From positions 1-64,000 of the forward strand of contig NZ_FZOQ01000008.1 of assembly GCF_900188175.1 (NCBI RefSeq): a stretch of 64,000 bases of DNA, given 5' to 3'. The translations under genes were made by a program, and so were the position numbers. Source of the stretch: Pontibacter ummariensis. Lineage in GTDB: Bacteria; Bacteroidota; Bacteroidia; Cytophagales; Hymenobacteraceae. How positions within the stretch are numbered: position 1 is the first letter of the stretch; each line of letters opens with the position of its first letter. Positions 5,275-32,940 of this stretch are shown piece by piece. A model generated the notes under the pieces. That model saw only the letters and a list, made by a program, of their open reading frames with translations, had not been told where the DNA came from and did not search any database.

Positions 5275-5293
5275 CTAAAAAAGAGTAGAGACA

Positions 5294-5322
5294 GAAGCCA
5301 CAGATAAAGTGCCTGTGGCTTC
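5294..5322 (+). terminator. Hairpin after the 4630-5274 gene
   Basis: Perfect 10-bp inverted repeat (arms 5294-5303 and 5313-5322, 9-nt loop) twenty bases past the stop codon. There is no T-tract, so it may be a weak terminator or a transcript-stabilising stem. Confidence 0.45.
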
Positions 5323-5486
5323 GCCCCTTCCCGACCGAAAAGGGGCTATACCCCTAAAGCGGGAGCACAGCAAGCAGCTTGGTTTTGTTTCGCCTACGTG
5401 CTGCCGGCCTGCTTCACGGATCAGCGCAGCGCAAGAAAACAAAGCCACCAAGCAAACTTGTTTTTAAGAATTAAATAGAAATCCAT

Positions 5487-5981
5487 ATGGCAGATAACAG
5501 AGACATGCAGCATGACAACAGGCACTTATATCGTTTAAGCGAACTGGACGATTATAAAGTAGCCAGCGATGACCCTGATGTACGTGGTTGGGAAATCGTG
5601 GACGTGAACAAGGAGAAGTTCGGTACCGTTCGGGAGCTACTCGTAGACCCCGACATAGAGAAGGTGCGCTACCTGGACGTGGAGCCGACCCGTGACCTGG
5701 TAGCGGGTGGCGAAGGCAAGCGGATGCTTGTGCCGATTGGCGTTGCCAAGCTCGACGAGGACCATGACCAGGTAATTGTAGATAAGGTGGACAAGGTATC
5801 TGTATCGTCTTTCCCCCTCTATACCGGGGAAGTGGTGGACAGAGACTACGAGGTAGCCGTAACGGAGGTATTCAACCACCCGGCCGGCCCAGCGCCTGAA
5901 ACACGGGCAAGAGGAGCGTTTTACGACGCGCCTCTTTACGACGAGGAACGCTTCTATACAAACCGAAACCGCCGGTTATAA
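5487..5981 (+). CDS. PRC-barrel domain protein
   Basis: 164 residues. Residues about 14-112 form a PRC-barrel: RLSELDDYKVASDDPDVRGW, then VDVNKEKFGTVRELLVD and KVRYLDVE, then RMLVPIGVAKLDEDHDQVIV, the usual order of strands in this fold. The C-terminus (about 130-164) is Arg/Tyr-rich, ends in FYTNRNRRL and looks disordered. Stand-alone PRC-barrel proteins of this kind are frequent in Bacteroidota and Proteobacteria, often near stress genes; no molecular role is settled. Cytoplasmic, no signal peptide. Confidence 0.85.
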   Translation: MADNRDMQHDNRHLYRLSELDDYKVASDDPDVRGWEIVDVNKEKFGTVRELLVDPDIEKVRYLDVEPTRDLVAGGEGKRMLVPIGVAKLDEDHDQVIVDKVDKVSVSSFPLYTGEVVDRDYEVAVTEVFNHPAGPAPETRARGAFYDAPLYDEERFYTNRNRRL

Positions 5982-6935: not shown

Positions 6936-7847
6936 ATGAAGCATTTAAATTCCTTTTTAAAGAAGACCTGGGAGGTAATACAGCACACCAAAAAAGGCTT
7001 TCTGAAAGGGGAGCCTATTGTGCACAGTGCCGCGATTGCCTTCTTCACCATCTTTTCGCTCCCTGCCCTCCTCATCGTTATCAGCTTTATAGGTACCCTG
7101 TTTTTTTCTGGGAAAACGGTAAGAACAGAAATCGTGAAAGAGGTGGAAGACCTGATCAACGCGAATGCGGCGGAGCAGGTAAAATCTGTGCTGGAAAACC
7201 TCTCTCAGTTACAACTCGGCTTTTGGGAGGTACTGCTGGGTGTCGTCGTTGTGCTTCAGGGAGCCTCTGTCGTGTTCTTTATGATACAAAAAGCGCTTAA
7301 TACGGTTTGGCAGGTAAAGGTGAAGCCGGACGTAAAGCTCTGGCGGGTTATAAAGCACCGGCTTATTGCCCTGGTATTGGTTGTAGGCTTAGGGTTGCTG
7401 CTTACCTTAAGTCTAATGCTCGACACCGTCGTGTCTGTCTTCAGCCAACAACTGCAGGCCCTGTTTGAAGAGCACCTTTCCCCAGCTATCCGAATCATGA
7501 ACACGGCTTTTTACCTGGTCGTGGTCTTAGGCTTTTTTACCGCCGTCCATAAAGTATTGCCGGACGCCAGGGTAAGCTGGAAAGACGCGCTGGCAGGTGG
7601 CCTTATCTCTTCTATTCTTTTTCTGCTGGGCAAGGAGCTCATCAATACCTTTTTAGGCAGTGTTAAAATAGTGGGCATTTACGCTGCGGCAGGCTCCCTG
7701 GTGGTGGTCTTGCTGTGGGTCTTTTACTCCTCCCTCGTTTTTGTGCTAGGGGCTGAGATCACCAAGGCGTATGCTAACATGCGCGGGCGCGAAATAGAAC
7801 CAACATCCATTGCGATGAAATATGAGCGGGAAAAGATTGATCTGTGA
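6936..7847 (+). CDS. YihY/BrkB-family inner-membrane protein
   Basis: 303 residues, near the usual length of the family. N-terminal KGFLKGEPIVHSAAIAFFTI is the conserved entry helix, followed by segments ending at FIGTLFFSG, LLGVVVVLQGASVVFFMIQ, LIALVLVVGLGLLLTLSLML, LGFFTAVHKVLPD and SLVVVLLWVFYSSLVFVLGA, six predicted membrane helices in all. The segment VLPDARVSWKDALAGGLISS and the GAEITKAYA end are signature stretches. The family was once mis-assigned as RNase BN; its true role (transport or envelope function) is not settled. Confidence 0.85.
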   Translation: MKHLNSFLKKTWEVIQHTKKGFLKGEPIVHSAAIAFFTIFSLPALLIVISFIGTLFFSGKTVRTEIVKEVEDLINANAAEQVKSVLENLSQLQLGFWEVLLGVVVVLQGASVVFFMIQKALNTVWQVKVKPDVKLWRVIKHRLIALVLVVGLGLLLTLSLMLDTVVSVFSQQLQALFEEHLSPAIRIMNTAFYLVVVLGFFTAVHKVLPDARVSWKDALAGGLISSILFLLGKELINTFLGSVKIVGIYAAAGSLVVVLLWVFYSSLVFVLGAEITKAYANMRGREIEPTSIAMKYEREKIDL

Positions 7848-7867
7848 GCTAAGCACCTCCTACCGCC

Positions 7868-9316
7868 CTACACCAGCAACCAGCCCATGCCCAACAAGCC
7901 TAACAACAGTGCTGCCAGCAAGGTTGGAACAAGGTTGTTAGCCAGGACGGCTTTGTAGTTCCTGATGTTTGCCACCGAAGCCGCCGCTATGATATTGAAC
8001 AGGCAAACGGCATTCCCGATCGAGGCCCCCGCCAGTTGCAGCGCCAGCACCGTGTTCACGCTGATGCCCAGTGATGCGGCTGTTTGCTGTTGCGAGGCAC
8101 CGAATACCAGGTTAGAGATCGTAGTGCTGCCTGTAATAAAAGCGCCCATCACCCCGATAAAAGGGGCAAACACGGGGTAAGTGTCCCCCAGCTTACTCAG
8201 TAGTTCGGCAATGTAGCGCACCATGGAGGGCTGCTCCACACCCGAAAAAATCATGAGTTGGGCAATCGCCACAGAAGGGAACAGCACCACAAACACATTC
8301 CCCATCTTGCCCAAGGGCTCTTTCAGGTACAGGGATTTGCTCTTCCTGTAGTAAGCGACCCCCAGCCCCACCACAACAAAGGGCAGAAAAGGGGACTGCA
8401 GGGGCTTTATGCCTCCCCGGATGCCCGAGCGGAACATGTCCTCAAATACCAGCTCCCAACCAATCCAATGCCGCAGCGGGGCGAAGAGCTTGGGCAAGAG
8501 CAGCAGGAGCGCCAGCACAGCATAGGGCAGCCAGGGCCGCAGGTCGATCTGCGTTCCTTTCTGGCGCAGGTATACGACCGAAAGTCCCAACATGAGAAGG
8601 GCCGCAAAAACAGTGGCTAGTTCAGGGGCCAGCCAGGCCAGGGCACAGAAAGGGAGCATAAAGAACACATACAGCACCAGTACCTGCTTTTGGTTCTCGA
8701 GCGCCCCATGCTGCTGACGAACCAGGCGGAGCACAAACCACAGCACCAGCAGGCCGGCCAGGCTCATCAGCAATGCCGCAGTAATGCCAATCACTTTCAG
8801 GGTGTCGTTGCCTAAATTGAGTGGCAGTTGCAGCCCGATCAGTAGCGGTGTGCCCACGGCCCCGAACAAGGCAAACAAACCGTCGAACAGCAGCACCACC
8901 GACACCGAAAGCACTGCCTCAAAGCCCAGCGCCATCAGGATCAGGGGTACAATAGCACCCGGCGTACCAAAGCCGGCCACTCCCTCAAAGAAAGCCGTTA
9001 AGCCGATGGCCAGCAGGAAAAAGCGCAGCTCTCTGGAGGGGTGCAACTTGTCGAGCGAGTGGGTGATCTGCTCCACCAGCCCCGTATGGTCCATGATCGT
9101 ATAGAGGAAAACAGCGCCCAGCACAATCAGCAGAATGTTAAGCGTGGTCAGCAGCGACACACCCAGCGCTCCCAGGTAGTGGGGCAGCCCCGCTCCCCAG
9201 TAAAAGAACAGCAGCGTGGTGACGGCCCAGCCTATCAACACCGCCGGCTTCACCCCTTTGGTCAAAGAGATAGCCACCAGTAGCAGGATAGGCAGCAGTG
9301 CGAGCAGGTAAGGCAT
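7868..9316 (-). CDS. lctP: L-lactate permease family transporter
   Basis: 482 residues, somewhat shorter than the roughly 550-residue E. coli LldP. Hydrophobic throughout with about 12-14 membrane helices. Family signatures are plain: LTAFFEGVAGFGTPGAIVP (about residues 106-124), LFDGLFALFGAVGTPLLIGL, and the C-terminal GAFITGSTTISNLVFGASQQ followed by QLAGASIGNAVCLFNIIAA. Role: proton-coupled uptake or export of lactate or glycolate across the inner membrane. It converges on the YihY gene with only 20 bases between stops. A D-lactate dehydrogenase lies 3 kb away on the same strand, consistent with lactate handling, though not co-transcribed. Substrate assignment is by family. Confidence 0.88.
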   Translation of the reverse strand: MPYLLALLPILLLVAISLTKGVKPAVLIGWAVTTLLFFYWGAGLPHYLGALGVSLLTTLNILLIVLGAVFLYTIMDHTGLVEQITHSLDKLHPSRELRFFLLAIGLTAFFEGVAGFGTPGAIVPLILMALGFEAVLSVSVVLLFDGLFALFGAVGTPLLIGLQLPLNLGNDTLKVIGITAALLMSLAGLLVLWFVLRLVRQQHGALENQKQVLVLYVFFMLPFCALAWLAPELATVFAALLMLGLSVVYLRQKGTQIDLRPWLPYAVLALLLLLPKLFAPLRHWIGWELVFEDMFRSGIRGGIKPLQSPFLPFVVVGLGVAYYRKSKSLYLKEPLGKMGNVFVVLFPSVAIAQLMIFSGVEQPSMVRYIAELLSKLGDTYPVFAPFIGVMGAFITGSTTISNLVFGASQQQTAASLGISVNTVLALQLAGASIGNAVCLFNIIAAASVANIRNYKAVLANNLVPTLLAALLLGLLGMGWLLV

Positions 9317-20936: not shown

Positions 20937-21274
20937 TCCCTTTTGCAGCTATTTGCTGGCAACACCTTATATGCGAACAGCCGCTTTCCCTCGGGAGTGT
21001 GGCTGTTTTTTTTTGGCTGGTATAAGTTCGGAAACCATGCAGCGGAACAGATTAACGGCTACAACAAAGGCCCAGGTGTACGCACTTATCTTCCTACGCA
21101 CAGTACGATTCTTTGTCAAAAGAGCCTCTTTTGCCTCTTGTCCCGCTGCCGTTTTGGCGTGTTCTACGTATAACTTTCTACCTTCTGCTACATCTTCCTC
21201 CCTCATTTATCAAGTGATGGTATTGTTTATTCGTTTTTATTAAAGCTGGGGATAAGTCGGTACCCGGAACATCC
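20937..21274. other. Intergenic region with strong terminator
   Basis: About 340 bases; after the terminator at 20976-21014 nothing further is recognised except the expected promoter region of cyanophycin synthetase. Short frames here lack coding character. Confidence 0.5.
20976..21014 (+). terminator. Intrinsic terminator after exonuclease copy 2
   Basis: Stem AACAGCC/GGCTGTT (20976-20982 with 21001-21007), extendable by a G-T and a C-G pair, followed directly by a run of nine T. Confidence 0.85.
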
Positions 21275-23902
21275 ATGAAAATCCTTGAACTTAAAATAAT
21301 GCGCGGGCCAAACTACTGGTCCATCAAGCATCCGAAGATCATCGTACTGAAACTGGACCTCCAGGACCTGCAGGATACCCAGACGAACGAAATACCAAAC
21401 CTGGAGCAGAAGCTATTGAAGCTGCTCCCCGGCCTTTACAGGCACCGCTCCTCCGAGGGCACCGAAGGGGGCTTTATCCGGCTGGTGAACGAAGGGACCA
21501 CGCTGAGCAAGGTCGTGCAGCACGTTGCCCTGGAACTGCAAACCATCGCAGGCATGGACAGCGGCTACGGCAGGCGCTATGCCTCCAGCCAGCCGGGGGT
21601 GGACTTCGTCGTGTTCTCCTACCAGCAGGAACGGGCGGGCGAATACGCTGCCGAGGCGGCCGTACGCATTACCGGGGCCCTGGCCCGTGGGGAGCGGGTG
21701 AGCGTGATCCAGGACGTGGCGAAGCTGCACCAGATACGGGAAGACGAGTATTTCGGGCCAACGACCGAGGCCATTGTACAGGAGGCCGTGAACCGCGACA
21801 TCCCCTATATCCAGAACAGACAGAGCGGGCTCATCCACTTGGGCTATGGCATTTACCAGAAGCGTATACAGGCGGCCATGAGCAGCAATACCTCCTGCTT
21901 TGCGGTAGAGAGTGCCGGCGACAAAAACGTCACGAAGCGGATACTGGCGGAAGCAGGCATCCCCGTGCCACAGGGCCGCACAGTGTCTAACACGCGCGAA
22001 CTGGAAGAGGCGGTGGACGAGTTAGGCTACCCACTCGTCACCAAGCCCCTGAACGGCAACCAGGGCAAGGGGGCCAGCATCAACATCCCGAACTGGAAGG
22101 AGGCACAGAAAGGCTTCGCAGAGGCAAAACGCTACGCCGAGGCCGTGATGGTAGAGCAGTTCATAGCCGGCTTCGACTACCGGCTGCTCGTGATCGACGG
22201 CAAGTTCACCGCCGCTGCCAAACGTACTCCGGCCATGGTGACCGGCGATGGTACCGCTACGATCCGCCAGCTGGTAAACGCAGTAAACAAAGACCCGCGC
22301 CGGGGGGTGGGCCACGAGAAGGCGCTCACGCACATCAAGATCGACAAGATCAGCCGCGGCATCCTGCGCGAAAAAGGCCTTACCTTAGATTCCGTGCTCC
22401 CCAAGGGCCAGGTGCTGTACCTGAAAAACACGGCCAACCTGAGCACCGGCGGCACGGCTACCGATGTCACAGATGTCGTGCACCCTTACAACGTGCTGAT
22501 GGCCGAGCGCATTGCCGGCATCATCGGCCTGGATATTTGCGGGGTCGACGTGATGACCTCCGACATCGCCATCCCCTTACCTGAAACCCGGGGGGCCGTG
22601 ATAGAGGTGAACGCCGCGCCGGGGCTGCGGATGCACATCTCCCCTACCGAGGGCCTGCCGCGCAACGTGGCCGAGCCAATCATCAACATGCTGTTCCCCT
22701 ACGGCTGCCCCTCCCGCATTCCCATTGTGGCGGTAACGGGCACCAACGGCAAGACCACCACCACCCGCCTGATTGCCCATATCCTCCAGTTCAAAGGCCA
22801 CAAGGTGGGCTATACCACCACCGACGGCATTTACATACAGGGCCGCAAGATCATTAAAGGCGACACCACGGGCTCCTACAGCAGCGAGTTTGTGCTGAAA
22901 GACCCGACCGTGAACTATGCGGTGCTGGAGTGCGCCCGGGGCGGTTTGCTGCGCTCGGGCCTGGCCTTTACGCAATGCGATATCGGGGTGGTGATGAACG
23001 TGACGGAAGACCACCTGGGGCTGGGCGACATCAATACCGTGGAGGACATGGCCAAGGTAAAGGGCGTGATTCCCAAAACAGTGTGCCCGGATGGCTATGC
23101 CGTGCTGAACGCCGACGACGACCTGGTGTACGGCATGGCCAGTGGCCTCCGCTGCAAAGTGGCCTTCTTTAGCCTGGACGAGTCGAATCCGCGCATCATC
23201 GAGCACACGGCCAAAGGCGGACTGGCGGCGGTGTTCGAAGACGGCTATATCTCTATCTTCAAGAACACCTACAAGATCCGGATCGACCGGGTAGCGGACA
23301 TACCGCTTACCTTCGGGGGCAAGGCCCGCTTCAACATCTACAATGTGCTGGCGGCTACCCTGGCAGCTTATATCTCGCACATGGAGGTAAACGAGATCAA
23401 GACGGCGCTGCGCACCTTTATCCCCTCGCCGGAGACCACCCCAGGCCGCATGAACCTGTTTCACCTGCCGCATGCCGAGGTGCTGGTGGACTATGCCCAT
23501 AACATTGCCGCCATGCAGGCCATCGGGGAGTTTGTCAGCCAAACCGAAGCGAGCACCAAGATCGGGATCATCGCCGGCATTGGCGACCGCCGCGACGAGG
23601 ACACGAAAGAGGTAGGCCGTATTGCCGCCGAGGTATTTGATCAGATCATCATCCGGCAGGACAAAGACCTGCGCGGGCGCGCCGGCAAAGAGATCAACAG
23701 CCTCTTGAAGGAGGGAATTTTTGCGGTAAAACCAGAGCTGGAACCTCTTGAGATAAATCAGGAAACACGGGCCCTGGCCTATGCCCTGGAGTATGCACCG
23801 GACGGCGCTTTCATTGCCCTTTTCTCGGAGGACATCCCGGAAGCAGTAAAGCTGGTGGAGAATTTCCGGGTGATCCAGCACCGGAAGTCGGCGATGGAGT
23901 AA
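21275..23902 (+). CDS. cphA: Cyanophycin synthetase
   Basis: 875 residues, the standard length. Order of domains: an N-terminal CphA-specific domain (1 to about 165, with SSEGTEGGFIRLVNEGTTLS), an ATP-grasp ligase (about 210-480, KRILAEAGIPVPQG, PLVTKPLNGNQGKGASI, VEQFIAGFDYRLLVIDGKF, IEVNAAPGLRMH), and a Mur-ligase-like domain (about 485-875) with the P-loop GTNGKTTTTR near 489 and LVDYAHN. The enzyme builds multi-L-arginyl-poly-L-aspartate, a cytoplasmic nitrogen reserve, adding Asp with the ATP-grasp and Arg with the Mur-like site. Neither cyanophycinase nor isoaspartyl dipeptidase is adjacent, so breakdown genes must be elsewhere or absent. Confidence 0.95.
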   Translation: MKILELKIMRGPNYWSIKHPKIIVLKLDLQDLQDTQTNEIPNLEQKLLKLLPGLYRHRSSEGTEGGFIRLVNEGTTLSKVVQHVALELQTIAGMDSGYGRRYASSQPGVDFVVFSYQQERAGEYAAEAAVRITGALARGERVSVIQDVAKLHQIREDEYFGPTTEAIVQEAVNRDIPYIQNRQSGLIHLGYGIYQKRIQAAMSSNTSCFAVESAGDKNVTKRILAEAGIPVPQGRTVSNTRELEEAVDELGYPLVTKPLNGNQGKGASINIPNWKEAQKGFAEAKRYAEAVMVEQFIAGFDYRLLVIDGKFTAAAKRTPAMVTGDGTATIRQLVNAVNKDPRRGVGHEKALTHIKIDKISRGILREKGLTLDSVLPKGQVLYLKNTANLSTGGTATDVTDVVHPYNVLMAERIAGIIGLDICGVDVMTSDIAIPLPETRGAVIEVNAAPGLRMHISPTEGLPRNVAEPIINMLFPYGCPSRIPIVAVTGTNGKTTTTRLIAHILQFKGHKVGYTTTDGIYIQGRKIIKGDTTGSYSSEFVLKDPTVNYAVLECARGGLLRSGLAFTQCDIGVVMNVTEDHLGLGDINTVEDMAKVKGVIPKTVCPDGYAVLNADDDLVYGMASGLRCKVAFFSLDESNPRIIEHTAKGGLAAVFEDGYISIFKNTYKIRIDRVADIPLTFGGKARFNIYNVLAATLAAYISHMEVNEIKTALRTFIPSPETTPGRMNLFHLPHAEVLVDYAHNIAAMQAIGEFVSQTEASTKIGIIAGIGDRRDEDTKEVGRIAAEVFDQIIIRQDKDLRGRAGKEINSLLKEGIFAVKPELEPLEINQETRALAYALEYAPDGAFIALFSEDIPEAVKLVENFRVIQHRKSAME

Positions 23903-24059
23903 GAAGTTGCAAGCATGGGCAAGGGTTTGATTTGAATAAATTGGCGTTGTGGTGGCTTATTCAAGGGCTCATGAATTCACTGTTGTTACTTCTGTTCGTT
24001 GTCCGAGCTGATGTTTTACTGCAGAACTCTCGCAGGTTATGAGAGGGCACTGGCAGTTT

Positions 24060-24210
24060 CTTGTCTAAGTTGGCGTAGGGTCTGCTTATCCACGGCTCTA
24101 ATGAAGCCCTTTTGCATAGAGGAGGGCTTTGCGCTCCCCGTCTGGGGTAGGGGCCTTTCTGAAGCGAGGGCGGGTTTTCCTGCTCAGCGCTGCCGGGGCT
24201 AGGGCCTCAC
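24060..24210 (+). repeat. Dispersed intergenic repeat R1, copy B
   Basis: Shares TTGTCTAAGTTGGCGTAGGG, GCGCTCCCCGTCTGGGG and TAGGGGCCTTTCTGAAGCGA with copy A, in the same order; more diverged in the middle. Confidence 0.6.
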
Positions 24211-24261
24211 GGTTTCGTTTCCTGCCAGAGCCCCTCTGTTCAGCATTGTCTTTCGTGCACT

Positions 24262-24300
24262 CCCCTCCTTATTTAAGGAGGGGTGCCGAAGGCGGGGTGG
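24262..24300. repeat. Short palindromic GC-rich repeat (family R3)
   Basis: 10-bp arms (24262-24271 and 24274-24283) of CCCCTCCTTA type, then GCCGAAGGCGGGGTGG. The same style of CCCCTCC/GGAGGGG unit occurs at 36541-36570 and 36961-36994. Confidence 0.5.
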
Positions 24301-24416
24301 TTCATCTCTTTTCGAGGGCCCCTCCCCTGGCGCCTTCGCCCCTGCTCCACACCACCTCTCCGGAAGGGTCTTGTCCAAATCAACCGGAGAGGTCACCGCA
24401 CAGGGATTCTTCTCTA

Positions 24417-25298
24417 CTACCCTTTTGACCGCACCTCGATCTGGCCGTCCCGGACGCGGACTTCAAAGGCGGGTTGTGGCTCGGATGCCGGGCCCTGCTC
24501 AATCTTGCCATCCTCCAAAGAAAAGACGGAGCCATGCCAGGGGCAGCGCACACGGCCGTCTGCCAGCAGGTCGCCATCAGAAAGCGGGCCGCCCATGTGG
24601 GAGCAGCTGTGTGCCAGCGCAAACACCTTCCCCTCCTGCCGGGCTAGCAGCACCGGTACGTCCCCGGCTTTCACGCAGCGCATGCTGTTTTCTGCCAGTT
24701 CCTTTTCCGGCAAAACTACCACAAAGTCTTGTAGCTTCCTGGCTCCTGCAGGGGAATGGTCTACCCCGATGCGCTTGCTGTAAACGAGGTGCCCGCCCAG
24801 GTAAGCTCCCGCACCCACGATCCCGTAGCCCAGCATAGACAGGCCAATGGCCGCTCCGCGCGTTTTCCTGCGCCGCCGCAGCAACAGGGAGGTAACGTAG
24901 AGGGCAGCCGCGCCCGCATTCAGCATGCCGTGCATCAGGCCGAGTTTTCGCTTTTCTTTGGTCGTGCCGGTCCAGTCCGCCAGTCCCGAAAGGGCCGCGC
25001 CTACCGCCCCGACTAGTCCCACAGCCACAGCAGCATCCGCGCCGGGCGCATACTTTTTCTGGCCCAGCAGTTCCATGGTGTCCAGCACGGCGGCTGTCGT
25101 CCAGGACCCGACCGGCACATCTGTGATCGCCGGATGAAGCGGATGCCCAAGCCAAGTGCCGTGCAGGGCGTTCTTGATTTGCTGGCCGGTTTCGCCGCCT
25201 GCTTTAAAAGCATCCACGACCGCAGGCTGAAGAGCATCGCCAGCCGTTTTCAGCCATTCTTGTTGCTCGATGGTATTGATCAACGTATTCTGCTCCAT
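24417..25298 (-). CDS. DUF2231 membrane domain fused to Rieske [2Fe-2S] domain
   Basis: 293 residues. The N-terminal part (about 45-180) is a DUF2231-type membrane domain with four helices: LGHPLHPAITDVPVGSWTTA, AVGLVGAVGAALSGLADWTG, MHGMLNAGAAALYVTSLLL, GYGIVGAGAYLGGHLVY. The C-terminal part (about 195-290) is a Rieske ferredoxin domain with complete ligands: CSHMGGPLSDG and CPWHGSVF (C-x-H ... C-x-x-H). The cluster probably faces the cytoplasm or periplasm beside the membrane and passes electrons; the partner is unknown. Fusions of this kind occur in several phyla. Monocistronic; a repeat copy lies at its 3' side. Confidence 0.88.
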   Translation of the reverse strand: MEQNTLINTIEQQEWLKTAGDALQPAVVDAFKAGGETGQQIKNALHGTWLGHPLHPAITDVPVGSWTTAAVLDTMELLGQKKYAPGADAAVAVGLVGAVGAALSGLADWTGTTKEKRKLGLMHGMLNAGAAALYVTSLLLRRRRKTRGAAIGLSMLGYGIVGAGAYLGGHLVYSKRIGVDHSPAGARKLQDFVVVLPEKELAENSMRCVKAGDVPVLLARQEGKVFALAHSCSHMGGPLSDGDLLADGRVRCPWHGSVFSLEDGKIEQGPASEPQPAFEVRVRDGQIEVRSKG

Positions 25299-25782
25299 TT
25301 GCTTTTATCTCCTTTTCTTTTGGATGGTGTTGCTATGAACGCAGCTTCAGGAAAGGAGGTTTTGCAGGGAAGTCTTACCTGTTCTGGAGCAAGGTTTTTC
25401 GTAAGAGAAGCAGCTTTGGGGAAAGAACTCCCCCTGTGGACTAACTATTTTCTTTTGGAGCATCACCTATAGTAACACCACCCCTCCCGCTGTAGCTATA
25501 TTTATACCTCCGGTACACATATGCAGAAGTATATCATACTAGTGATACTACCTTTGATTTTAGAAATACTATTTAGATCGTTCGAAGCTTCTTCAGAAGC
25601 CCTTCCTACAATTCACTAACGACGTTACTGTTTTCATTATGGTCTCTAGTTAGTAGGATATAAATTTTGTGATAAACCGAAAAGAAGCGATTGGAGGGCT
25701 CTCTTGAGACAATTGCACCCTATATTAAAAGGTCATATATTGATACTTGTATACATAGAAAGTACGACTGACAGAATAAACG
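25299..25782. other. Intergenic region, left edge of AT-rich island
   Basis: About 480 bases; composition shifts clearly to AT-rich near 25480. Promoter for the HNH gene must be here; a TACCTTTG at 25549-25556 fits the Bacteroidota -7 consensus but lacks a convincing -33 partner. No integrase, tRNA end or direct-repeat boundary seen. Confidence 0.5.
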
Positions 25783-26904
25783 ATGGATGCTCAAACCTTT
25801 AGTAACATTAGTAAAATAATTGAACGAGATAGTAAATTCACAACCTATAAATTTGCTTTACTAAGGGGTACAATAGACATAGTACAGGAGAATTCTCCAT
25901 TTATTCTCGTCCGTGGAAATGTTGTAGAAATACCTTTAGGCTTAATGATAGAGAAATGGATCCTTTATTATTATCCAATTCTAGCTTCTCCTCAACTTGT
26001 TCCACAAATAAATGGTAAAGACAAAAAGCTTGCGTTTGGTAAACACTTTGATGAAATCATAAAGCATTATAGACATCACGGGGGACTATCTTTACTCTAC
26101 AACGAGCTACGAAATCAAGGTGTAAGCTTAGAAATAAGAGACAAATTTCTAAATCTTTCCAAGTCTTTAAAAAGAACAATTGTAGAACAACCAATGCGCT
26201 ATATTGGAGGATCTATTTCAAACAAGCATTATTCAATTTTCAACTATCAAGGCACAAGTAAAAGAATAACGTGTAAGTCTCTGAATACGCAATGGCTCGT
26301 TGATTCTTTTGGCTCTTTCACTATCCCTTTCTCTTATTATGAGGCCTTTAAAGTATTAGGTAGCTTTTTGGGTGGAACAGATTCTATACTTTTCAAATGG
26401 GCTGAGTTTTCAGTAAGTGCATCAAGAGATGCACTTACAACAGAAAAAGTAATACATGAAATTTTAAAGGGCCCGATTACGAAAAGAGACGCAAAGGATT
26501 CAAAAGACTTGTACAAATCTATTTTAGGAGAAAAACAGCAAGTTGAGTGCGTTTGGTCAGGTACAAACATAGTCAAATATGATGTCGACCACCTAATACC
26601 TTTTTCTGTATGGAAGAACAACGACTTGTGGAATCTACTACCGGCATCGCCTAAAGTAAATAACCAAAAGCGAGACAAAATTGCATCTTTAACTCTTTTA
26701 GACAAGAGAAAGGACACTATTATTTACTATTGGGAGCTCATTCAACAAAAGTTCAATGAAAAGTTTTTTAATGAGTTAAGCATCTCTCTAACGGGGTACA
26801 TTGACAAACAGAACTGGCAAAACAGAGCTTTTGAACAACTTAAAAAGACAAGTTCAAGCCTAATTAATATTCGAGGTTATGAGGAGTGGAACTATACAAA
26901 ATAA
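25783..26904 (+). CDS. HNH endonuclease domain protein
   Basis: 373 residues, AT-rich (about one third GC by eye). The HNH module is at about 250-300: CVWSG (Cys256), YDVDHLIPFSVW with Asp269-His270, LWNLLPASPKVN with Asn284, and NNQKRDK with Asn293, the D-H ... N ... N arrangement of HNH/HNN nucleases that bind one metal ion. Only one Cys of the frequent zinc pair is present. The N-terminal 240 residues match nothing I know; LVDSFGSFTIPFSYYEAFKV and the preceding part could be a specificity or sensing domain. The last 26 bases overlap the methyltransferase-HIT gene, so the two are almost certainly co-translated. Possible roles: restriction-like or abortive-infection nuclease. The target is unknown. 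Confidence 0.82.
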   Translation: MDAQTFSNISKIIERDSKFTTYKFALLRGTIDIVQENSPFILVRGNVVEIPLGLMIEKWILYYYPILASPQLVPQINGKDKKLAFGKHFDEIIKHYRHHGGLSLLYNELRNQGVSLEIRDKFLNLSKSLKRTIVEQPMRYIGGSISNKHYSIFNYQGTSKRITCKSLNTQWLVDSFGSFTIPFSYYEAFKVLGSFLGGTDSILFKWAEFSVSASRDALTTEKVIHEILKGPITKRDAKDSKDLYKSILGEKQQVECVWSGTNIVKYDVDHLIPFSVWKNNDLWNLLPASPKVNNQKRDKIASLTLLDKRKDTIIYYWELIQQKFNEKFFNELSISLTGYIDKQNWQNRAFEQLKKTSSSLINIRGYEEWNYTK

Positions 26905-27757
26905 CACCTATAGCCATTTAACAGCTAAAGAGAGAGATACCATTTCCTTTCCTGCAAGAATCATCAAAGAAAGGCAGCTATTGAAGGGAGCTATTTTAGA
27001 TTTTGGATGCGGATTAGGTAAAGATGTTGAATTATTAAATAGTATAGGCCATAATGTAACAGCTTATGATCCATTCTATTTTCCTGATTATCCTAAAAAG
27101 CTTTTCGATACAATTATTTGTTTTTACGTGTTAAATGTCCTTCTTCCTAATGAACAGGAACACGTATTAATGAATGTCTCGTCATTACTAAAGTCAAATG
27201 GTAAAGCTTATTTTGCTGTTCGAAGAGACATACAGTATGAAGGTTTTAGGCTTCATAAACTTCATCAAAAGCAAACTTATCAGTGCAATGTTCTACTACC
27301 TTTTAAGTCTATATTTAAAAATGAAAGTTGTGAAATTTATGAGTACCAACATTACACAGCTTTGCACCAAGGAAATGAGCAATTAAGTCCTTTTCTGAAG
27401 GGTAACGAAGAAAGAGAATTAGTTACTGAAAGCACTGAAGCATTTACAATTTATGATAAATATCCTGTCAACCCCGGGCACTGCTTAATTATACCTAAGA
27501 GAATAACAGCAAATTATTTTGATTTAACTGTCGCCGAGCAACAAGCTTGTTGGTCCATGGTAAACAAAGTTCAAAATATTTTACAAGAGCAGTATAATCC
27601 TGATGGCTTTAATATAGGTGTTAACGTTGAAGAAGCAGCCGGGCAAACCATACCACACGTTCACCTTCATGTAATTCCCCGTTATAATCATGATATGGAA
27701 GACCCAAGAGGAGGAGTACGAAATGTAATACCTTCTCGAGGAAACTATTTAAAATAA
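26879..27757 (+). CDS. SAM-dependent methyltransferase fused to HIT hydrolase domain
   Basis: 292 residues. Residues 1 to about 160 form a class I methyltransferase: motif I ILDFGCGLGKDVELL (39-53), acidic Asp64 (AYDPFYFPDYP), FDTIICFYVLNVLLP (76-90) and GKAYFAVRRD. QCNVLLPFKSIF and CEIYEYQHY (136-159) are marks of a small methyltransferase family I have seen without known substrate. Residues about 175-292 are a HIT domain: FTIYDKYPVNPGHCLIIPKR, then the catalytic triad HVHLHV with His260, 262 and 264, and DPRGGVRNVIP. HIT enzymes hydrolyse or transfer nucleotidyl groups, including adenylates on DNA ends. Start at 26879 overlaps the HNH gene by 26 bases. The fusion suggests modification plus nucleotide processing, perhaps in a defence or DNA-modification module. 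Confidence 0.85.
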   Translation: MRSGTIQNNTYSHLTAKERDTISFPARIIKERQLLKGAILDFGCGLGKDVELLNSIGHNVTAYDPFYFPDYPKKLFDTIICFYVLNVLLPNEQEHVLMNVSSLLKSNGKAYFAVRRDIQYEGFRLHKLHQKQTYQCNVLLPFKSIFKNESCEIYEYQHYTALHQGNEQLSPFLKGNEERELVTESTEAFTIYDKYPVNPGHCLIIPKRITANYFDLTVAEQQACWSMVNKVQNILQEQYNPDGFNIGVNVEEAAGQTIPHVHLHVIPRYNHDMEDPRGGVRNVIPSRGNYLK

Positions 27758-27979
27758 GCCCTGAGAACAATGAGTTTGGACTCCACTACGCTTTAAGCCT
27801 AATAAACCCAGGCCCTTGCCTCCCCTTCCTTCCCATCTCTCCAACCTGGTGCACTGAACCGCCTTGATAAATAACCAAACAAGAAAGCACAAACAGCTGT
27901 TAAAGCCCTAAAGCAAGCCCCGGGTTTGTTTCCATTCTTTTCATGCTTATTTTGGGTAAACCACATAGCGACATAGATC

Positions 27980-28966
27980 ATGCAATACAGAAAACTAGGA
28001 AAAACAGGATTTGAGGTATCAGAAGTATCATTGGGTACCTGGCAAGTAGGCGGCCGCTGGGGCGACGCCTTTGATGAGCAGAACGCCGCACAGATTATTA
28101 ACAAAGCCATCGATGAAGGGGTTAATTTTATTGACACCGCCGATGTGTACAGCGAGGGCCAGAGCGAGGCTGCCGTGGCCAAAGTAGTCAAAAGCCGGAG
28201 CGAGCAGGTGTACATCGCCACCAAGTGCGGCCGCCAGATCTCCCCGCATACGTCCGAAGGCTACACGCCCGAACGCCTGAAGGGTTTTGTGGAGCAAAGC
28301 CTGCGCAACATGCAGCTCGAAACCCTGGACCTGATCCAGCTGCACTGTCCGCCAACAGAGGTCTACAACCGTCCCGAAATATTTGAAACGTTCGAAAAGC
28401 TAAAAGAGCAGGGCAAGATCCGGAACCTGGGCGTGAGCGTGGAACTGGTGGACGAAGCCCTGCTGGCCATGCAGTACCCGAACGTGACCACCGTGCAGAT
28501 CATTTACAACATGTTCCGCCTGAAGCCGGGCGAGGAGTTCTTCTCAAAAGCGAAGGAAAACAATGTCGGCATCATCTCGCGGGTGCCTTTGGCAAGTGGC
28601 TTACTTACCGGTAAGATGAGCCCGGAGACGAAGTTCGGCCCGGAAGACCACCGCACTTTTAACCGGCAGGGAGAAGCCTTTGACAAGGGAGAGACTTTTT
28701 CGGGCGTTGACTTTCACCTGGGGCTGGAAGCCGTGGAGGAACTGCGAAAGGTGTTCCCCGGGCAGGAGCCTTTGGCCGCATGGGCCTTGCGCTGGGTGCT
28801 GATGTCGCCGGAAGTAAGCACCGTGATCCCTGGCGCTTCGCGTCCGGACCAGGTAGAGGCGAACATCAAAGCCTCTAACTTACCGGCCCTGAGCCAGGAA
28901 CAAATGCAGGCGGTACAGCAGGTGTATGACCAATACATCCGGCCATCTGTGCACGAGCTCTGGTAA
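27980..28966 (+). CDS. Aldo/keto reductase
   Basis: 328 residues, a (beta/alpha)8 NAD(P)H-dependent oxidoreductase. Catalytic tetrad visible: Asp52 (NFIDTADVY), Tyr57, Lys82 (YIATKCG) and His122 (LIQLHCPP). The segment ASGLLTGK and the STVIPGASRPDQVEANIKAS end fit the YghZ/AKR11-14 type groups that use NADPH. Substrate unknown, broad carbonyl reduction likely. Composition returns to the genome norm here, marking the right edge of the AT-rich island. The desulfurase-like gene follows 61 bases later in the same direction and may share a transcript. Confidence 0.9.
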   Translation: MQYRKLGKTGFEVSEVSLGTWQVGGRWGDAFDEQNAAQIINKAIDEGVNFIDTADVYSEGQSEAAVAKVVKSRSEQVYIATKCGRQISPHTSEGYTPERLKGFVEQSLRNMQLETLDLIQLHCPPTEVYNRPEIFETFEKLKEQGKIRNLGVSVELVDEALLAMQYPNVTTVQIIYNMFRLKPGEEFFSKAKENNVGIISRVPLASGLLTGKMSPETKFGPEDHRTFNRQGEAFDKGETFSGVDFHLGLEAVEELRKVFPGQEPLAAWALRWVLMSPEVSTVIPGASRPDQVEANIKASNLPALSQEQMQAVQQVYDQYIRPSVHELW

Positions 28967-29027
28967 GGGACCAGAACCGCGCCAACACCTCTTTCACCCA
29001 AACAAGCACCTTTCAACAAGCTAAGAC

Positions 29028-30269
29028 ATGAGTACCTTATCCGTACAGCAGCTTCGCGCTGACTTCCCTGCCTTACAGGAGACAAAAGACAGGAAGCCTT
29101 TTATCTATTTCGACGGTCCCGGCGGCACCCAGATGGCGCAGCAAGCCGTGGATGCCATGGTGGGCTATATTACGAGCGGCATGGCCAATTTACATGGCGC
29201 TTTTGAAACCAGCGTAAAGACAGACCGCTTACTGGAAGATGGCCGGAAGGCAGTGGCGGACCTTCTGAACTGCACCCCACAGGAGGTAGCCTTCGGGCAG
29301 AACATGACCTCCCTTGCCTTTTCCATTGCCCGCAGCCTGGGGCCTTTCATCACGGCCTCGGATGAAGTGGTGGTGACGGAGCTGGACCACCGCGCCAACG
29401 TAGACCCCTGGGTCACGCTGGCCAAAGACAAGGGGGCACCCGTGACCTTTATTCCGGTGAACCCCGACACTTACACCCTGGAGCTGGACAAGCTGCACGA
29501 GCTTATCACCGAGAACACGAAACTGGTGGCCGTGGGCCTGTCGTCGAACGTAACGGGTACGGTAACGGACATCGCCCGGATCATTGCCCGGGCAAAGGAA
29601 GTAAACGCCCTGGTGGTGGTGGATGCCGTGCATGCGGTGCCCCACCTTTCCCTGGACTTTAAAGACCTGGGCTGCGATGTGCTGCTGTGCTCGGCCTATA
29701 AGTTCTTCGGTCCGCACGTGGGCATTGCCGTAATCGCCGCTTCCCTTTTCGAGAAGCTGCCCGTGTACAAGCTGCAGCCCGCCCCGCAGGAGATACCCGA
29801 TAAGCTGGAAACCGGCACCCAGAACCACGAAGCCATCGCCGGTCTGATCGGGGCCATTTCATTCATCGAAAACCTGGGGGAAGGCGCTACCCGGAGAGAA
29901 CGCCTGCAGTCGGGCATGCAGCGGATAGAGGCACATGAGCAGGAGCTGAGCGACCGGATCGAGGCCTTTTTAAAGCGTGTGCCGGAAGTGCGCCTGTACC
30001 GGGCACCGGAAGGCACGCCCAAGACGCCCACCTTCGCCTTTACCCTGGATAACATAAACGCCCGCGAAGCCTCGGCCTGGTTTGCCGAACGCTACAACAT
30101 GAACATTGCCGACGGCCACTTTTACGCCTCTACCATGGCCGAGAAGCTGGGTGTAAACCCCATGGGCGGCTGGATCAGGATTGGCTTGGCGCCTTATAAT
30201 ACCCTGGAAGAGGTAGAACTTTTTGAGCAGGGCCTGCAAGCGTTCTTAAGCGAGCATAGCAGCCAATAG
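29028..30269 (+). CDS. Cysteine-desulfurase-like PLP aminotransferase (class V)
   Basis: 413 residues. Fold-type I PLP enzyme: YFDGPGGTQMAQQAVDAM (27-44), VVTELDHRANVDPW (115-128), Asp199 and His202 in VVVDAVHAVPHLSLDF, and the Schiff-base Lys225 in CSAYKFFGPHVG. It belongs to the cysteine-desulfurase-like branch next to NifS/SufS. The persulfide Cys of true desulfurases is not evident: the usual loop region reads MNIADGHFYASTMAEKLGVN without Cys, so sulfur transfer is doubtful, and a role as lyase or aminotransferase on another amino acid is equally possible. The 3' end of the coding sequence forms one arm of a hairpin. Confidence 0.82.
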   Translation: MSTLSVQQLRADFPALQETKDRKPFIYFDGPGGTQMAQQAVDAMVGYITSGMANLHGAFETSVKTDRLLEDGRKAVADLLNCTPQEVAFGQNMTSLAFSIARSLGPFITASDEVVVTELDHRANVDPWVTLAKDKGAPVTFIPVNPDTYTLELDKLHELITENTKLVAVGLSSNVTGTVTDIARIIARAKEVNALVVVDAVHAVPHLSLDFKDLGCDVLLCSAYKFFGPHVGIAVIAASLFEKLPVYKLQPAPQEIPDKLETGTQNHEAIAGLIGAISFIENLGEGATRRERLQSGMQRIEAHEQELSDRIEAFLKRVPEVRLYRAPEGTPKTPTFAFTLDNINAREASAWFAERYNMNIADGHFYASTMAEKLGVNPMGGWIRIGLAPYNTLEEVELFEQGLQAFLSEHSSQ

Positions 30270-30292
30270 CTGCGCCCGCTTAAGAACGCTTG
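30237..30292. terminator. 16-bp hairpin overlapping a stop codon, between convergent genes
   Basis: Perfect arms 30237-30252 (inside the desulfurase-like coding sequence) and 30277-30292. It lies between two convergent genes and could end both transcripts, though no strong T-tract follows on either side. Confidence 0.55.
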
Positions 30293-30326
30293 TCTGAAGA
30301 ATGGCAGGGGTACCTTCGCAGAAATG

Positions 30327-32462
30327 CTAGTGGGCCTCTGCCATTTCTGTTTTACCATGTTCCGCGCTGATGCTCTTCTGCATGTCGGCCGGCACCGGGG
30401 CATATGCGGCGAAGTGGCTGCGCACGATGGCCCGGCCCTGGCTCAGGTTGCGGATAGAGGCCAGGAGCTTGTCCAGCTCGGCCAGTGGTGCCCGGGCCCG
30501 GATCACCTGGTAGTCCTGCTCCATTTCCATGTTCAGGATAATCCCTCTCCGGATCTGCAGTTCCGTCATCATGTCGCCCAGCAGCGAAAGCGGCACCCTT
30601 ACTTCCAGCTCCTGTACCGGCTCCAGCAGGAGGGGCTCTGCCTGCATAAAGGCTTCCCGGAAGGCCATCATCCCGGCGATCTTAAAGGAAATGTCGTTGC
30701 TGTCGACGGGGTGCATTTTGCCATCAAATACGCTCACCCGCACGTCGCGCACGTAGGAACCGGTGAGCGGCCCCTGCTCCATTTTCTCCATCACCCCTTT
30801 GAGGATAGAGGGCAGGAAGCGGCCATCGATCACCCCGCCCACAATGCAGTTGTTGAACACCAGTTTGCCGCCCCAGGGCAGGTCGATCGTTTCTGTTTCC
30901 CGTACCGGGTGCTCCTTCAGCGGGGGCATGCCTTCGTAGTAGGGCTCCACCTGCAGCGACACCTCCCCGAACTGCCCGGCTCCTCCCGACTGTTTTTTGT
31001 GGCGGTAGGTGGCCGTGGCGGCCCGCTGGATGGTTTCGCGGTACGGCACCTTCACTTTCTGGAACTCGACCTGCATTTTGTACACGTGCTCCAGCCGCCA
31101 TTTTGTGACCATCAGGTGCAGCTCGCCCTGGGTGGCCAGGATGAGTTGCTTCAGTTCCTGGTCGTAGCTCACCTCCACGGTGGGGTCTTCCATGTGTATC
31201 TCGCTCAGCACCTCCCCCAGCTTCTCCTCATCCTGCCGGTTGACGGCGGTAACCGCCACCCGCCATTTCGGATCCGGAAACTGTATCGGCTCGATACTGC
31301 CTGTGGCCTCCTTGCCGTTCAGCGTATGGTTGGTGTAGGTGTTCCGCAGCTTTAGCGTGCAGCCAATATCCCCGGCCTTGAGGCACTCCACGGGGTTACG
31401 GTTCTTTCCATCGGTTATAAACAACTGCCCGATGCGCTCCACTGTGTTCGTCTTCTCGTTCTGCAGTTCCATGCCGGTCGTTACTTCCCCGGCCAGTACT
31501 TTAAAGAAAGACAAACGACCCAGGCGCGGCTCAATCAGGGTTTTAAAGAAAAACAGGCGGGTGGGTGCCTGCGGATCACAGGGTACCTCCTGCCCGTCTT
31601 CGGTGCCCTCCGGGGGCATTTCGGTGGCAGAAGGCGCCACATTGTCGATAAAGCCCATCATGCGGCCCGAGCCCATGTCTTTTTTCGCGGACAGGCAGAA
31701 CACCGGGAACACCTCGTGCTTCATCATCCCTATTTTCAGACCCTGCCGCATTTCGTCTTCGTCCAGCGTGCCCTTCTCAAAGTACTTCTCCATCAGGCCC
31801 TCATCGTTCTCCGCCGCCTTTTCCACCAGCTCGTTGTGCAGCGCGTTCGCCCGCTCCTGCTCGCTGTCGGGTATGGGGAGCTTTTCGGGCTTGCCCCCTT
31901 CTTCCGGAAACTTATAAAGCACCATCTTCAGCAGGTCCACGATGCTGTCGAAGCCCAGCCCCGTATTGACAGGATATTGCATGATGGTGACCGCCGGCCC
32001 AAAAAAGAGCTTCGCTTCCTCGATGGTTTGCTTGAAACTGGCCCTGCCGGAGTCCAGCTGGTTCACAGCCAGGATGGTGGGCTTTTTATAGCGGTCCACA
32101 TAACTCCAGAGCAATTCGGTGCCTACTTCCACCCCGTTCTGGGCGTTGAGCAACAATACCGCCGTGTCGCACACCCGGATGGAGGAGATCACCTCCCCCA
32201 CGAAATCGTCGAGGCCGGGGGTATCCATCAGGTTGATCTTGTAGTCCCGCCACTCGGTATGCAGGCTGGTCGCATACACGGAACTGCCGCGCTCGTGCTC
32301 CACCTCGTGGTAATCGGAGACGGTGTTGTGCTCCTCTACTGTCCCACGGCGGTTAATGATGCCTGCTTCGAAGAGCATGGTTTCGGCGAGCGTTGTTTTA
32401 CCGCTTTTCGCAGGGCCTAGCAGCGCTACGTTTTTGATGTGTTTTTCGTCATACGTCTTCAT
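30327..32462 (-). CDS. Elongation factor G-like translational GTPase (EF-G2 type)
   Basis: 711 residues from the ATG at 32462; the frame is open 24 codons further but the P-loop spacing fits the later start. G1 GPAKSGKT (16-23), G3 DTPGLDDF, and domains II to V follow (TTGMELQNEKTNTVERIGQL, PKWRVAVTAVNRQDEEKLGE, YRHKKQSGGAGQFGEVSLQV). The G4 motif is NQLD in place of NKxD. In the second, ribosome-linked EF-G-like group (FusA2/EF-G2), translocation is not the main job; in some bacteria it aids ribosome rescue or is induced in stress. The normal fusA is not in this window. A 9-bp-arm palindrome lies about 120 bases upstream. Confidence 0.88.
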   Translation of the reverse strand: MKTYDEKHIKNVALLGPAKSGKTTLAETMLFEAGIINRRGTVEEHNTVSDYHEVEHERGSSVYATSLHTEWRDYKINLMDTPGLDDFVGEVISSIRVCDTAVLLLNAQNGVEVGTELLWSYVDRYKKPTILAVNQLDSGRASFKQTIEEAKLFFGPAVTIMQYPVNTGLGFDSIVDLLKMVLYKFPEEGGKPEKLPIPDSEQERANALHNELVEKAAENDEGLMEKYFEKGTLDEDEMRQGLKIGMMKHEVFPVFCLSAKKDMGSGRMMGFIDNVAPSATEMPPEGTEDGQEVPCDPQAPTRLFFFKTLIEPRLGRLSFFKVLAGEVTTGMELQNEKTNTVERIGQLFITDGKNRNPVECLKAGDIGCTLKLRNTYTNHTLNGKEATGSIEPIQFPDPKWRVAVTAVNRQDEEKLGEVLSEIHMEDPTVEVSYDQELKQLILATQGELHLMVTKWRLEHVYKMQVEFQKVKVPYRETIQRAATATYRHKKQSGGAGQFGEVSLQVEPYYEGMPPLKEHPVRETETIDLPWGGKLVFNNCIVGGVIDGRFLPSILKGVMEKMEQGPLTGSYVRDVRVSVFDGKMHPVDSNDISFKIAGMMAFREAFMQAEPLLLEPVQELEVRVPLSLLGDMMTELQIRRGIILNMEMEQDYQVIRARAPLAELDKLLASIRNLSQGRAIVRSHFAAYAPVPADMQKSISAEHGKTEMAEAH

Positions 32463-32940
32463 ACAGGTAAGATTTACAGGTTGTGTTACAGATAGAAGGT
32501 TTAAACGGAGGCGGCACACTAACACACTGCACATCAGGCCGCTACACTTAACTTATGCGAGAAATAAAGGCAAAAGGTTATTTTTTGTATTAGTATAATA
32601 CAAACGCACTCAAAAAGCGGCAGCACCGGTCTCATTTATCACTCCGGCGCCTCATTCCACAACGAAATGCCACTCTACAGGCCAGGAAAAGCCCGAAGGG
32701 AAGGGAGTTAGAAAATGGTTTTATCGGGTAGAGCTGCAGGTGGTACCACACAGCAGGCGCTGGACCAATTACAAAAGCACAGGGGCTAAGGCTGCCGCTC
32801 ATCTAATACAAGTGCTATACCCTTACGATTACTTGAGACAGTTACAAAGAGCAGACTGTCCTCTTGAGGGGATTAAGGGAGTGTTTCCATTACAATTAAT
32901 CCTATATTGCAGGGTATTCCTTTTTAAAGCTTAGCGTACC
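32463..32940. other. Intergenic region between divergent genes
   Basis: About 480 bases with the EF-G-like promoter region on the left, including the palindrome at 32584-32604, and the promoter of the 32941 gene on the right. No gene. Confidence 0.5.
32584..32604. promoter_or_regulatory. Perfect palindrome upstream of the EF-G-like gene
   Basis: TTTGTATTA and its inverse separated by GTA. On the minus strand it begins with a TTTG, with TAACCTTTTG 20 bases on, similar to the Bacteroidota -33/-7 pair. A dimeric repressor could therefore cover the promoter of the EF-G-like gene. Promoter reading is tentative. Confidence 0.4.

Follow-up and report, generated by a model that had tools for sequence, protein, structure and literature searches.

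An AT-rich gene pair in Pontibacter ummariensis

The locus considered here lies in a 64,000-nucleotide stretch of DNA from the bacteroidete Pontibacter ummariensis (positions 1 to 64,000 of contig NZ_FZOQ01000008.1; hereafter the window). Two overlapping genes on its forward strand, to which all features of the pair belong, code for an HNH nuclease (25783..26904; 373 amino acids) and for a fusion of a class I S-adenosylmethionine (SAM)-binding methyltransferase (MTase) to a HIT domain (26879..27757; 292 amino acids). Both open reading frames (ORFs) begin with ATG, and they share 26 bases (26879..26904), which suggests translational coupling. An earlier note, made from the letters alone, had placed the genes in this way and described an AT-rich island. 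The ORF check and the base composition agree: GC is 0.345 over the pair as against 0.509 across the window, and in 500-base steps it is 0.32-0.37 inside the island and about 0.56-0.64 on both flanks.

The nuclease is identified by its HNH core (26548..26682; residues 256-300), in which C256, D269 H270, N284 and N293 stand out; it matches Pfam HNH_4 (8.4e-8, residues 265-301) and, weakly, profiles of the Cas9 HNH domain. The region ahead of HNH_4 yielded no Pfam family above the cut-off. Its first 230 residues (25783..26472) form a predicted winged-helix domain resembling the sulfur-binding domain (SBD) of enzymes that recognize phosphorothioate (PT) in DNA, and would read DNA or a modification of it; the nearest solved structures are SBDs and other DNA-reading domains, at weak similarity. 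A TTYK motif lies at residues 20-23 (25840..25851), and its T21 Y22 K23 are invariant across 36 aligned proteins of the same nuclease class (class A below). In weak profile alignments this TYK coincides with the AP[HY]K of SBD enzymes in classes A, B, C and E, and not in class F: the lysine is retained, tyrosine stands for histidine, as in the proteins of L181 and L182, and there is no clear equivalent of YP. The sulfur pocket of SBD enzymes is described as HR or HK plus YP (PMC6224610, PMC7461809). NF045808, the model of the SBD-HNH enzymes, is not matched by the window protein, for which a search up to E = 1 gave a weak Cas9 model and nothing else. Homology of these N-termini to canonical SBDs was considered, and the profile comparison gave no proof of it. 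We name the proteins the TYK-HNH family.

The fusion protein combines an MTase domain (26879..27358; residues 1-160; Methyltransf_23 at 1.3e-10, residues 33-115) with a HIT domain (27404..27691; residues 176-271; 3.1e-23). The former bears the SAM-binding loop LDFGCGLGKD (26996..27025; residues 40-49) and the latter the catalytic triad HVHLH (27656..27670; residues 260-264), followed by a C-terminal PRGGVRNVIP stretch (27704..27733). Thus, the architecture given in the earlier note, an HNH core behind an unrecognized N-terminus and an MTase joined to a HIT domain with an intact HxHxH, holds. Across 81 MTase-HIT sequences the SAM-loop pattern is present in 80 and HxHxH in 79, the exceptions in the first alignment being a glutamine for the first histidine (L039) and an alanine for the nucleophile (L044). 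The fold and the triad place the second domain in the HIT superfamily; the only PADLOC HIT model that it matches is ThsC (4.4e-10), over residues 199-266. PRGGVR or PRGGIR recurs in the HIT-only relatives described below and in gp4 of phage phiSASD1.

In NCBIfam, the MTase domain is best matched by TIGR04096, the DNA phosphorothioation-associated putative methyltransferase (1.1e-13, residues 13-89), at 50.8 bits against a cut-off of 150 and over about 80 of the 478 model positions. Its structural neighbours are small-molecule and tRNA MTases. DNA MTases carry (N/D/S)PP(Y/F/W) at motif IV. On inspection, the corresponding region here reads CFYVLNVL and the domain gives way to HIT after about 160 residues; neither a DNA-MTase catalytic motif nor a target-recognition domain was seen.

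Constancy of the pairing

A scan of a species-genome collection gave 375 relatives of the fusion, of which the best 80 were kept as the locus set. These come from Bacteroidota and Ignavibacteria/Kapaibacterium, with one unclassified label of a metagenome-assembled genome. The full-length fusion is present in 15 of 296 Bacteroidota genomes, that of P. ummariensis included, and in only two of 50 genomes of the genus, seven more of which have a HIT-only relative; the P. ummariensis genome itself has a single copy plus one ordinary HIT-like match.

In all 80 loci an HNH-family ORF lies directly upstream of the fusion on the same strand. The distance between the two ranges from +123 to -49 bases, mostly -4, -8 or -13, with overlaps of 1-49 bases in most loci. 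Three of the upstream ORFs (L081, L117, L137) are cut by a contig end and two (L098, L114) are short; in L114 the HNH frame (4945-5835) has 296 amino acids and ends 123 bp before the fusion, and because the frame is short this copy may be damaged beside an intact MTase-HIT gene. An adjoining HNH gene is likewise present in the other 14 phylum-sample genomes that carry the fusion. By sequence, an HNH protein with a variable N-terminal domain is thus paired with a conserved MTase-HIT protein in every full-length case examined, and the neighbourhood check that the earlier note had proposed never found the full-length fusion without its HNH neighbour.

In 71 of the 74 loci measured, GC is lower over the pair than around it. 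Together with the patchy distribution and the occurrence of homologues on plasmids, this supports the note's view of a horizontally moving two-gene module. Its proposal of a defence candidate also gains from the neighbours, several of which are defence genes; they include matches to type I and type IV restriction models and GajB-like and HamB-like helicases. A GajB/UvrD-like helicase gene of 723-791 amino acids stops short of the HNH gene by 19 bp in L078 and by 45 bp in L073, and in L068 the 3' end of such a gene is left upstream of it, which points to another exchangeable neighbour.

No relative of the fusion was confirmed in the viral collection. Phage records gave 15 matches, none covering more than 80% of the query and the best ones in the HIT half; on these grounds a viral reservoir of the fusion was rejected. 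Around the window's own pair, the downstream aldo-keto reductase gene has counterparts in 13 of 50 genus genomes (E 1e-100). Beyond it, nothing in 21001-32600 aligned in the nine genus regions compared, and because only this gene aligned, no empty insertion site can be demonstrated in the lineage. Upstream of the pair, judged by eye, lie a reverse-strand gene combining a membrane domain with a Rieske-type domain (24417-25298) and a forward-strand gene for a cyanophycin-synthetase-like protein (21275-23902), here in a genome of the Bacteroidota.

Exchange of the nuclease beside a constant fusion

The upstream nucleases sort into three classes, A (that of the window), B and C, plus single cases. 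When 81 MTase-HIT proteins are placed on a maximum-likelihood tree, the distribution of class A calls for 18 changes, and well-supported branches force at least 14 of them. The co-inheritance of nuclease and MTase that would define a type II restriction-modification system is thus not what the tree displays, the HNH class having changed on it at least 14 times.

The exchange can be followed at the DNA level. On the upstream side, Algoriphagus limi (L089, class A) and A. kandeliae (L129, class B) share 4850 bp at 96.3% identity, ending 25-40 bp before the HNH start. No blastn match spans the HNH gene, and identity resumes about 5 bp past its stop, at 92.1% over 6842 bp. In five further comparisons (L119/L122, L132/L122, L120/L107, L120/L092 and L089/L106) DNA identity breaks likewise around the HNH gene. 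Another case is L041, whose MTase-HIT gene has 83% DNA identity to its class A sisters L042 and L043 from the first base. The 66-77 bp just before the nuclease are also held in common, and the nuclease itself is a different protein, of class D, which matches SBDHga1 (8h0l; 2.3e-7) and NF045808 (3.5e-25; 88.7 bits, below the curated cut-off of 180). By sequence, then, the nuclease gene has been exchanged in place, and once for a recognized PT-DNA restriction enzyme. The constant enzyme therefore adjoins nucleases with different reading domains, one of them a recognized PT reader.

Partners of HIT-only and other TYK-HNH proteins

HIT-only relatives of the same subfamily adjoin a TYK-HNH gene in 14 of the 22 loci examined: six in the genus, four at other chromosomal sites (L046-L049) and the rest on plasmids of Polaromonas, Aromatoleum, Hymenobacter and Persicobacter, with either gene order. 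A TYK-HNH neighbour is absent from four (L050, L054, L170, L171), two (L163, L169) were left without assignment, and the others are a phage (L059) and a single ORF (L051). The last of these (7472-8467; 331 amino acids) combines an HNH domain of another type (PF01844) with a HIT domain from this subfamily, has no TYK motif and is a single-protein version of the HNH-HIT link. The phage, Streptomyces phiSASD1, has a PAPS-reductase-family gene (gp3) directly preceding a HIT gene (gp4) whose product ends in PRGGVRGVIP; the phage may have its own version of the chemistry.

On other plasmids TYK-HNH is fused to, or lies beside, a class I MTase of another family, and on further ones neither a HIT nor an MTase gene is annotated next to it. 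Given these varied partners, the slot beside the nuclease is often filled by a HIT domain, an MTase or both. The fused forms, proteins of 573-602 amino acids, occur on plasmids of Azospirillum, Pseudoalteromonas and Roseomonas (L192, L193, L194), the Roseomonas copy being near mcrC. Plasmids of Nostoc and Tolypothrix (L183, L188, L189) carry a class A-like or C-like TYK-HNH gene divergently oriented near a canonical SBD-HNH gene, as if both kinds of nuclease belonged together. A Chlorohelix plasmid (L182) has a canonical SBD-HNH gene beside dndB, dndE and dndD, that is, a PT reader next to the presumed maker of its target, and on a Picosynechococcus plasmid (L187) an SBD-HNH gene is three genes away from an annotated DNA phosphorothioation-associated putative methyltransferase.

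Phosphorothioation genes around the pair

PT genes or their remnants accompany the pair in 19 of the 80 loci, or in 17 if the two shortest stubs are set aside; nucleases of class A and of class B are both represented. The count retains the weak matches of L063 (19 residues, E 1e-4) and L095 (22 residues, E 3e-6). It leaves out the weak PbeA-like matches (24-27%) of L064, which is better taken as a type IV enzyme, and L101, as well as L117, whose contig begins inside the HNH gene so that the genome's sspB piece cannot be placed. The first 16 PT-linked loci found require 12 changes on the tree, and none of 20 random 15-kb control regions had a PT match.

The spacing is often tight. A dndC gene lies 21 bp upstream of the HNH gene in L066 and L071 (in the latter the DndC match has 475 bits); in L078 the distance is 3 kb, again upstream. 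The PADLOC MTase_II model is also hit by the DndC genes of L071 and L078; we put this down to a flaw in the model, since the L078 gene exceeds the cut-off of TIGR03183. By ORF ends, sspD is 3 bp from the pair in L116 and in L084 and 22 bp in L067, and pbeA follows the pair at 0.6-0.9 kb in L096, L109 and L112. An intact sspB lies 8 bp upstream in L108. In L109 sspB, cut by the locus edge, lies 4.2 kb upstream with a piece of sspC. Truncated 5' pieces of sspB precede the HNH gene by 4-354 bp in seven loci (L063, L095, L115, L116, L126, L134, L136), opposite-strand sspB-like sequence occurs in L093 and L098, and L102 has a pbeA stub. In L039, which is not among the 80, sspB, sspC, the HNH gene and the MTase-HIT gene form one tightly spaced run. 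None of the pairs was seen to have all of sspBCD next to it, and there is no sspB stub in the window. The P. ummariensis genome gave no DndC, SspD or PbeA, the search there having been confined to these three.

Searches of whole genomes covered 50 carrier genomes of the 80 loci, hand-picked without near-duplicates. Three of them have SspD and three have PbeA; SspD always adjoins the pair, and PbeA is always within 0.9 kb of it. Of the seven with SspB, six have it at most 5 kb upstream of the HNH gene (L108, L109, L115, L116, L126, L136) and in the seventh (L117) its position cannot be placed. The 296-genome sample has SspD in 13 and PbeA in six. Hence, SspD is no commoner in carriers (3/50 versus 13/296), and it is the adjacency that stands out; in G111, a carrier of the phylum sample, SspD is on a different contig. 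We also considered whether the pair excludes dndC and rejected the idea: no strong match falls in the 15 carriers as against 10 in the 296-genome sample, a comparison without power because only about 0.5 would be expected in the carriers.

A scan of the flanks covered 120 of the 138 eligible nearest ORFs of the 80 loci, with 120 of 205 ORFs from the 20 random regions as the control. Among the best 25 of 153 PADLOC families it lists PbeA (five members), SspB (two), SspD (two), SspA (one) and DndC (one), and no PT family is among the best 25 of 66 in the control, where rarer families may still include one. Three of the PbeA members are those of L096, L109 and L112, one is very likely the L064 cross-hit and one has no assignment, so that the scan taken alone overstates PbeA. 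Further, the Algoriphagus loci are numerous and related, and their flanks are not independent of each other. Judged by these neighbourhoods, the module lies recurrently within or next to genes of the Dnd, Ssp and Pbe systems, and this recurrent link to DNA phosphorothioation, absent from the earlier note, is the best lead as to its function.

Possible functions of the pair

The reading that we favour, to which we give not quite an even chance, is that the pair constitutes a mobile, PT-linked restriction module of two proteins. The HNH protein would use its SBD-like winged-helix domain to read a feature of DNA, PT or another backbone modification being the likeliest, and would nick or cut the DNA so read, as type IV and type IIM enzymes do. 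The MTase-HIT protein would not be its specificity partner: the nuclease is swapped like a cartridge and the two-domain enzyme stays constant, and its chemistry would therefore serve many readers, one constant reaction suiting different specificities. That reaction most likely processes nucleotides or DNA ends bearing a sulfur or an adenylyl group, with the MTase half acting on the same substrate or product as the HIT half. HIT enzymes can hydrolyse nucleoside phosphorothioates, and the phiSASD1 HIT gene adjoins a PAPS-reductase-family gene; for these reasons we prefer the as yet unproven picture of an enzyme that clears away nucleotides or ends once they are thiolated or adenylated. HINT1 is reported to convert dGMPS to dGMP with release of H2S, with rates given for AMPS as well (PMC8775712). 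In P. ummariensis the pair would act against incoming modified DNA.

The truncated sspB genes, and the window's genome with none of DndC, SspD and PbeA, fit a PT-hostile nuclease, but also simple recombination at a hot spot. The association could reflect a shared habitat, the pair being an ordinary defence-island cassette that moves via sspB 5' ends and other hot spots. The other defence genes adjoining it, named above, and the sspB stubs, which suggest repeated recombination at one place, speak for this. Against it stand the random control regions without a PT match, the mere 3-22 bp that separate dndC or sspD from the pair in five loci, and the MTase itself, nearest to a dnd-associated family, and we consider it unlikely, if still to be reckoned with. 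A more specific idea, which we regard as improbable, makes the MTase-HIT protein a PT eraser or detoxifier: after a PT-reading HNH protein has cut, HIT would hydrolyse the sulfur from thionucleotides or ends, the MTase half perhaps S-methylating them beforehand, and thionucleotides would thereby be kept from being recycled into host DNA and becoming self-targets. In that case the pair and the PT writers would exclude each other from a single chromosomal slot, of which the sspB stubs in front of the HNH gene would be the visible sign.

The earlier note had instead proposed that the module modifies DNA or a nucleotide and cuts unmodified targets. In the classic restriction-modification scheme the MTase marks host DNA, the HNH protein cuts unmarked DNA and HIT is ancillary; the presence of both enzymes in a single operon and the near-universal SAM loop speak for it. 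This part of the note is not supported: the scheme fits badly because the MTase is without the hallmarks of DNA MTases, with its short domain, its CFYVLNVL in the motif IV region and its small-molecule and tRNA MTase neighbours, and does not track the nuclease, which is swapped between unalignable classes. HIT-only pairs, moreover, dispense with the MTase. We hold it to be very unlikely. The overlapping genes of most loci, the patchy distribution and the tolerance of one constant partner for several nucleases would also suit a toxin-antitoxin or abortive-infection system, with the HNH protein as a toxin on host or phage DNA and MTase-HIT as an enzymatic antidote or switch. An antitoxin gene usually precedes its toxin gene, whereas in the fusion operons the HNH gene comes first. 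Some plasmid TYK-HNH genes (e.g. L196, L199) are without an annotated HIT or small-MTase neighbour, albeit in incomplete gene tables, and the PT link is left unexplained; such a system is distinctly unlikely. Finally, MTase-HIT might make or destroy a nucleotide messenger that licenses the nuclease, comparable to ThsC, which is reported to accompany 2.4% of Thoeris systems (PMC8565338). That ThsC is the sole PADLOC HIT match and that HIT enzymes act on dinucleoside polyphosphates would be in keeping with this. The pair, however, includes no synthase or TIR gene, and the solved domains nearest the HNH N-terminus, similar as they are only weakly, read DNA, so that we give nucleotide signalling little credence.

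If the PT-linked module is the right reading, the pair represents a new branch of DNA-sulfur-based immunity, unnamed in the papers and models searched. It would also offer a handle on the role of the dnd-associated methyltransferase TIGR04096 and on whether bacteria own an enzyme that removes or neutralizes phosphorothioate.

Comparison with known systems

The literature searched yielded no account of an HNH protein paired with HIT or MTase-HIT. Published work covers SBD-HNH enzymes as well as HNH genes in the vicinity of Dnd loci (PMC7461809, PMC10853773), and a search of the main texts of these two papers did not find the word HIT. SspE is another PT-sensing HNH nickase (PMC9646914). Among HNH proteins with a weakly matching HNH_4-type core, Septu PtuB has a PtuA ATPase, which is not found beside the window's HNH gene, MTase-HIT being there instead, as in the 80 loci; the remainder of Cas9 is absent from the window protein, whose N-terminus is different.

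The HIT domain shares its fold and HxHxH triad with the hydrolases Fhit and Hint, the Ap4A phosphorylases and Thoeris ThsC, to which the fusion adds the PRGGVR C-terminal stretch, the MTase and the pairing with TYK-HNH. A type II Thoeris system consists of HIT with ThsA and ThsB, and here the paired gene is that of an HNH protein. The MTase domain, as noted, comes closest to TIGR04096, differing in being fused to HIT. With regard to the Ssp, Dnd and Pbe systems themselves, the relation is one of neighbourhood, in about a quarter of the loci, rather than of membership, P. ummariensis being without DndC, SspD and PbeA.

A further parallel is with the PT-dependent SBD-HNH enzymes ScoMcrA, SprMcrA and EcoWI (NF045808), which combine an N-terminal reading domain with HNH, as the window protein is predicted to do. 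The window protein differs from these in having TYK for the HK motif and no clear second pocket motif, in its HNH_4 core as against the HNH_2 core of L041, and in being paired with MTase-HIT. The L041 partner belongs to the SBD-HNH kind, and it occupies the very site from which a class A nuclease has been displaced.
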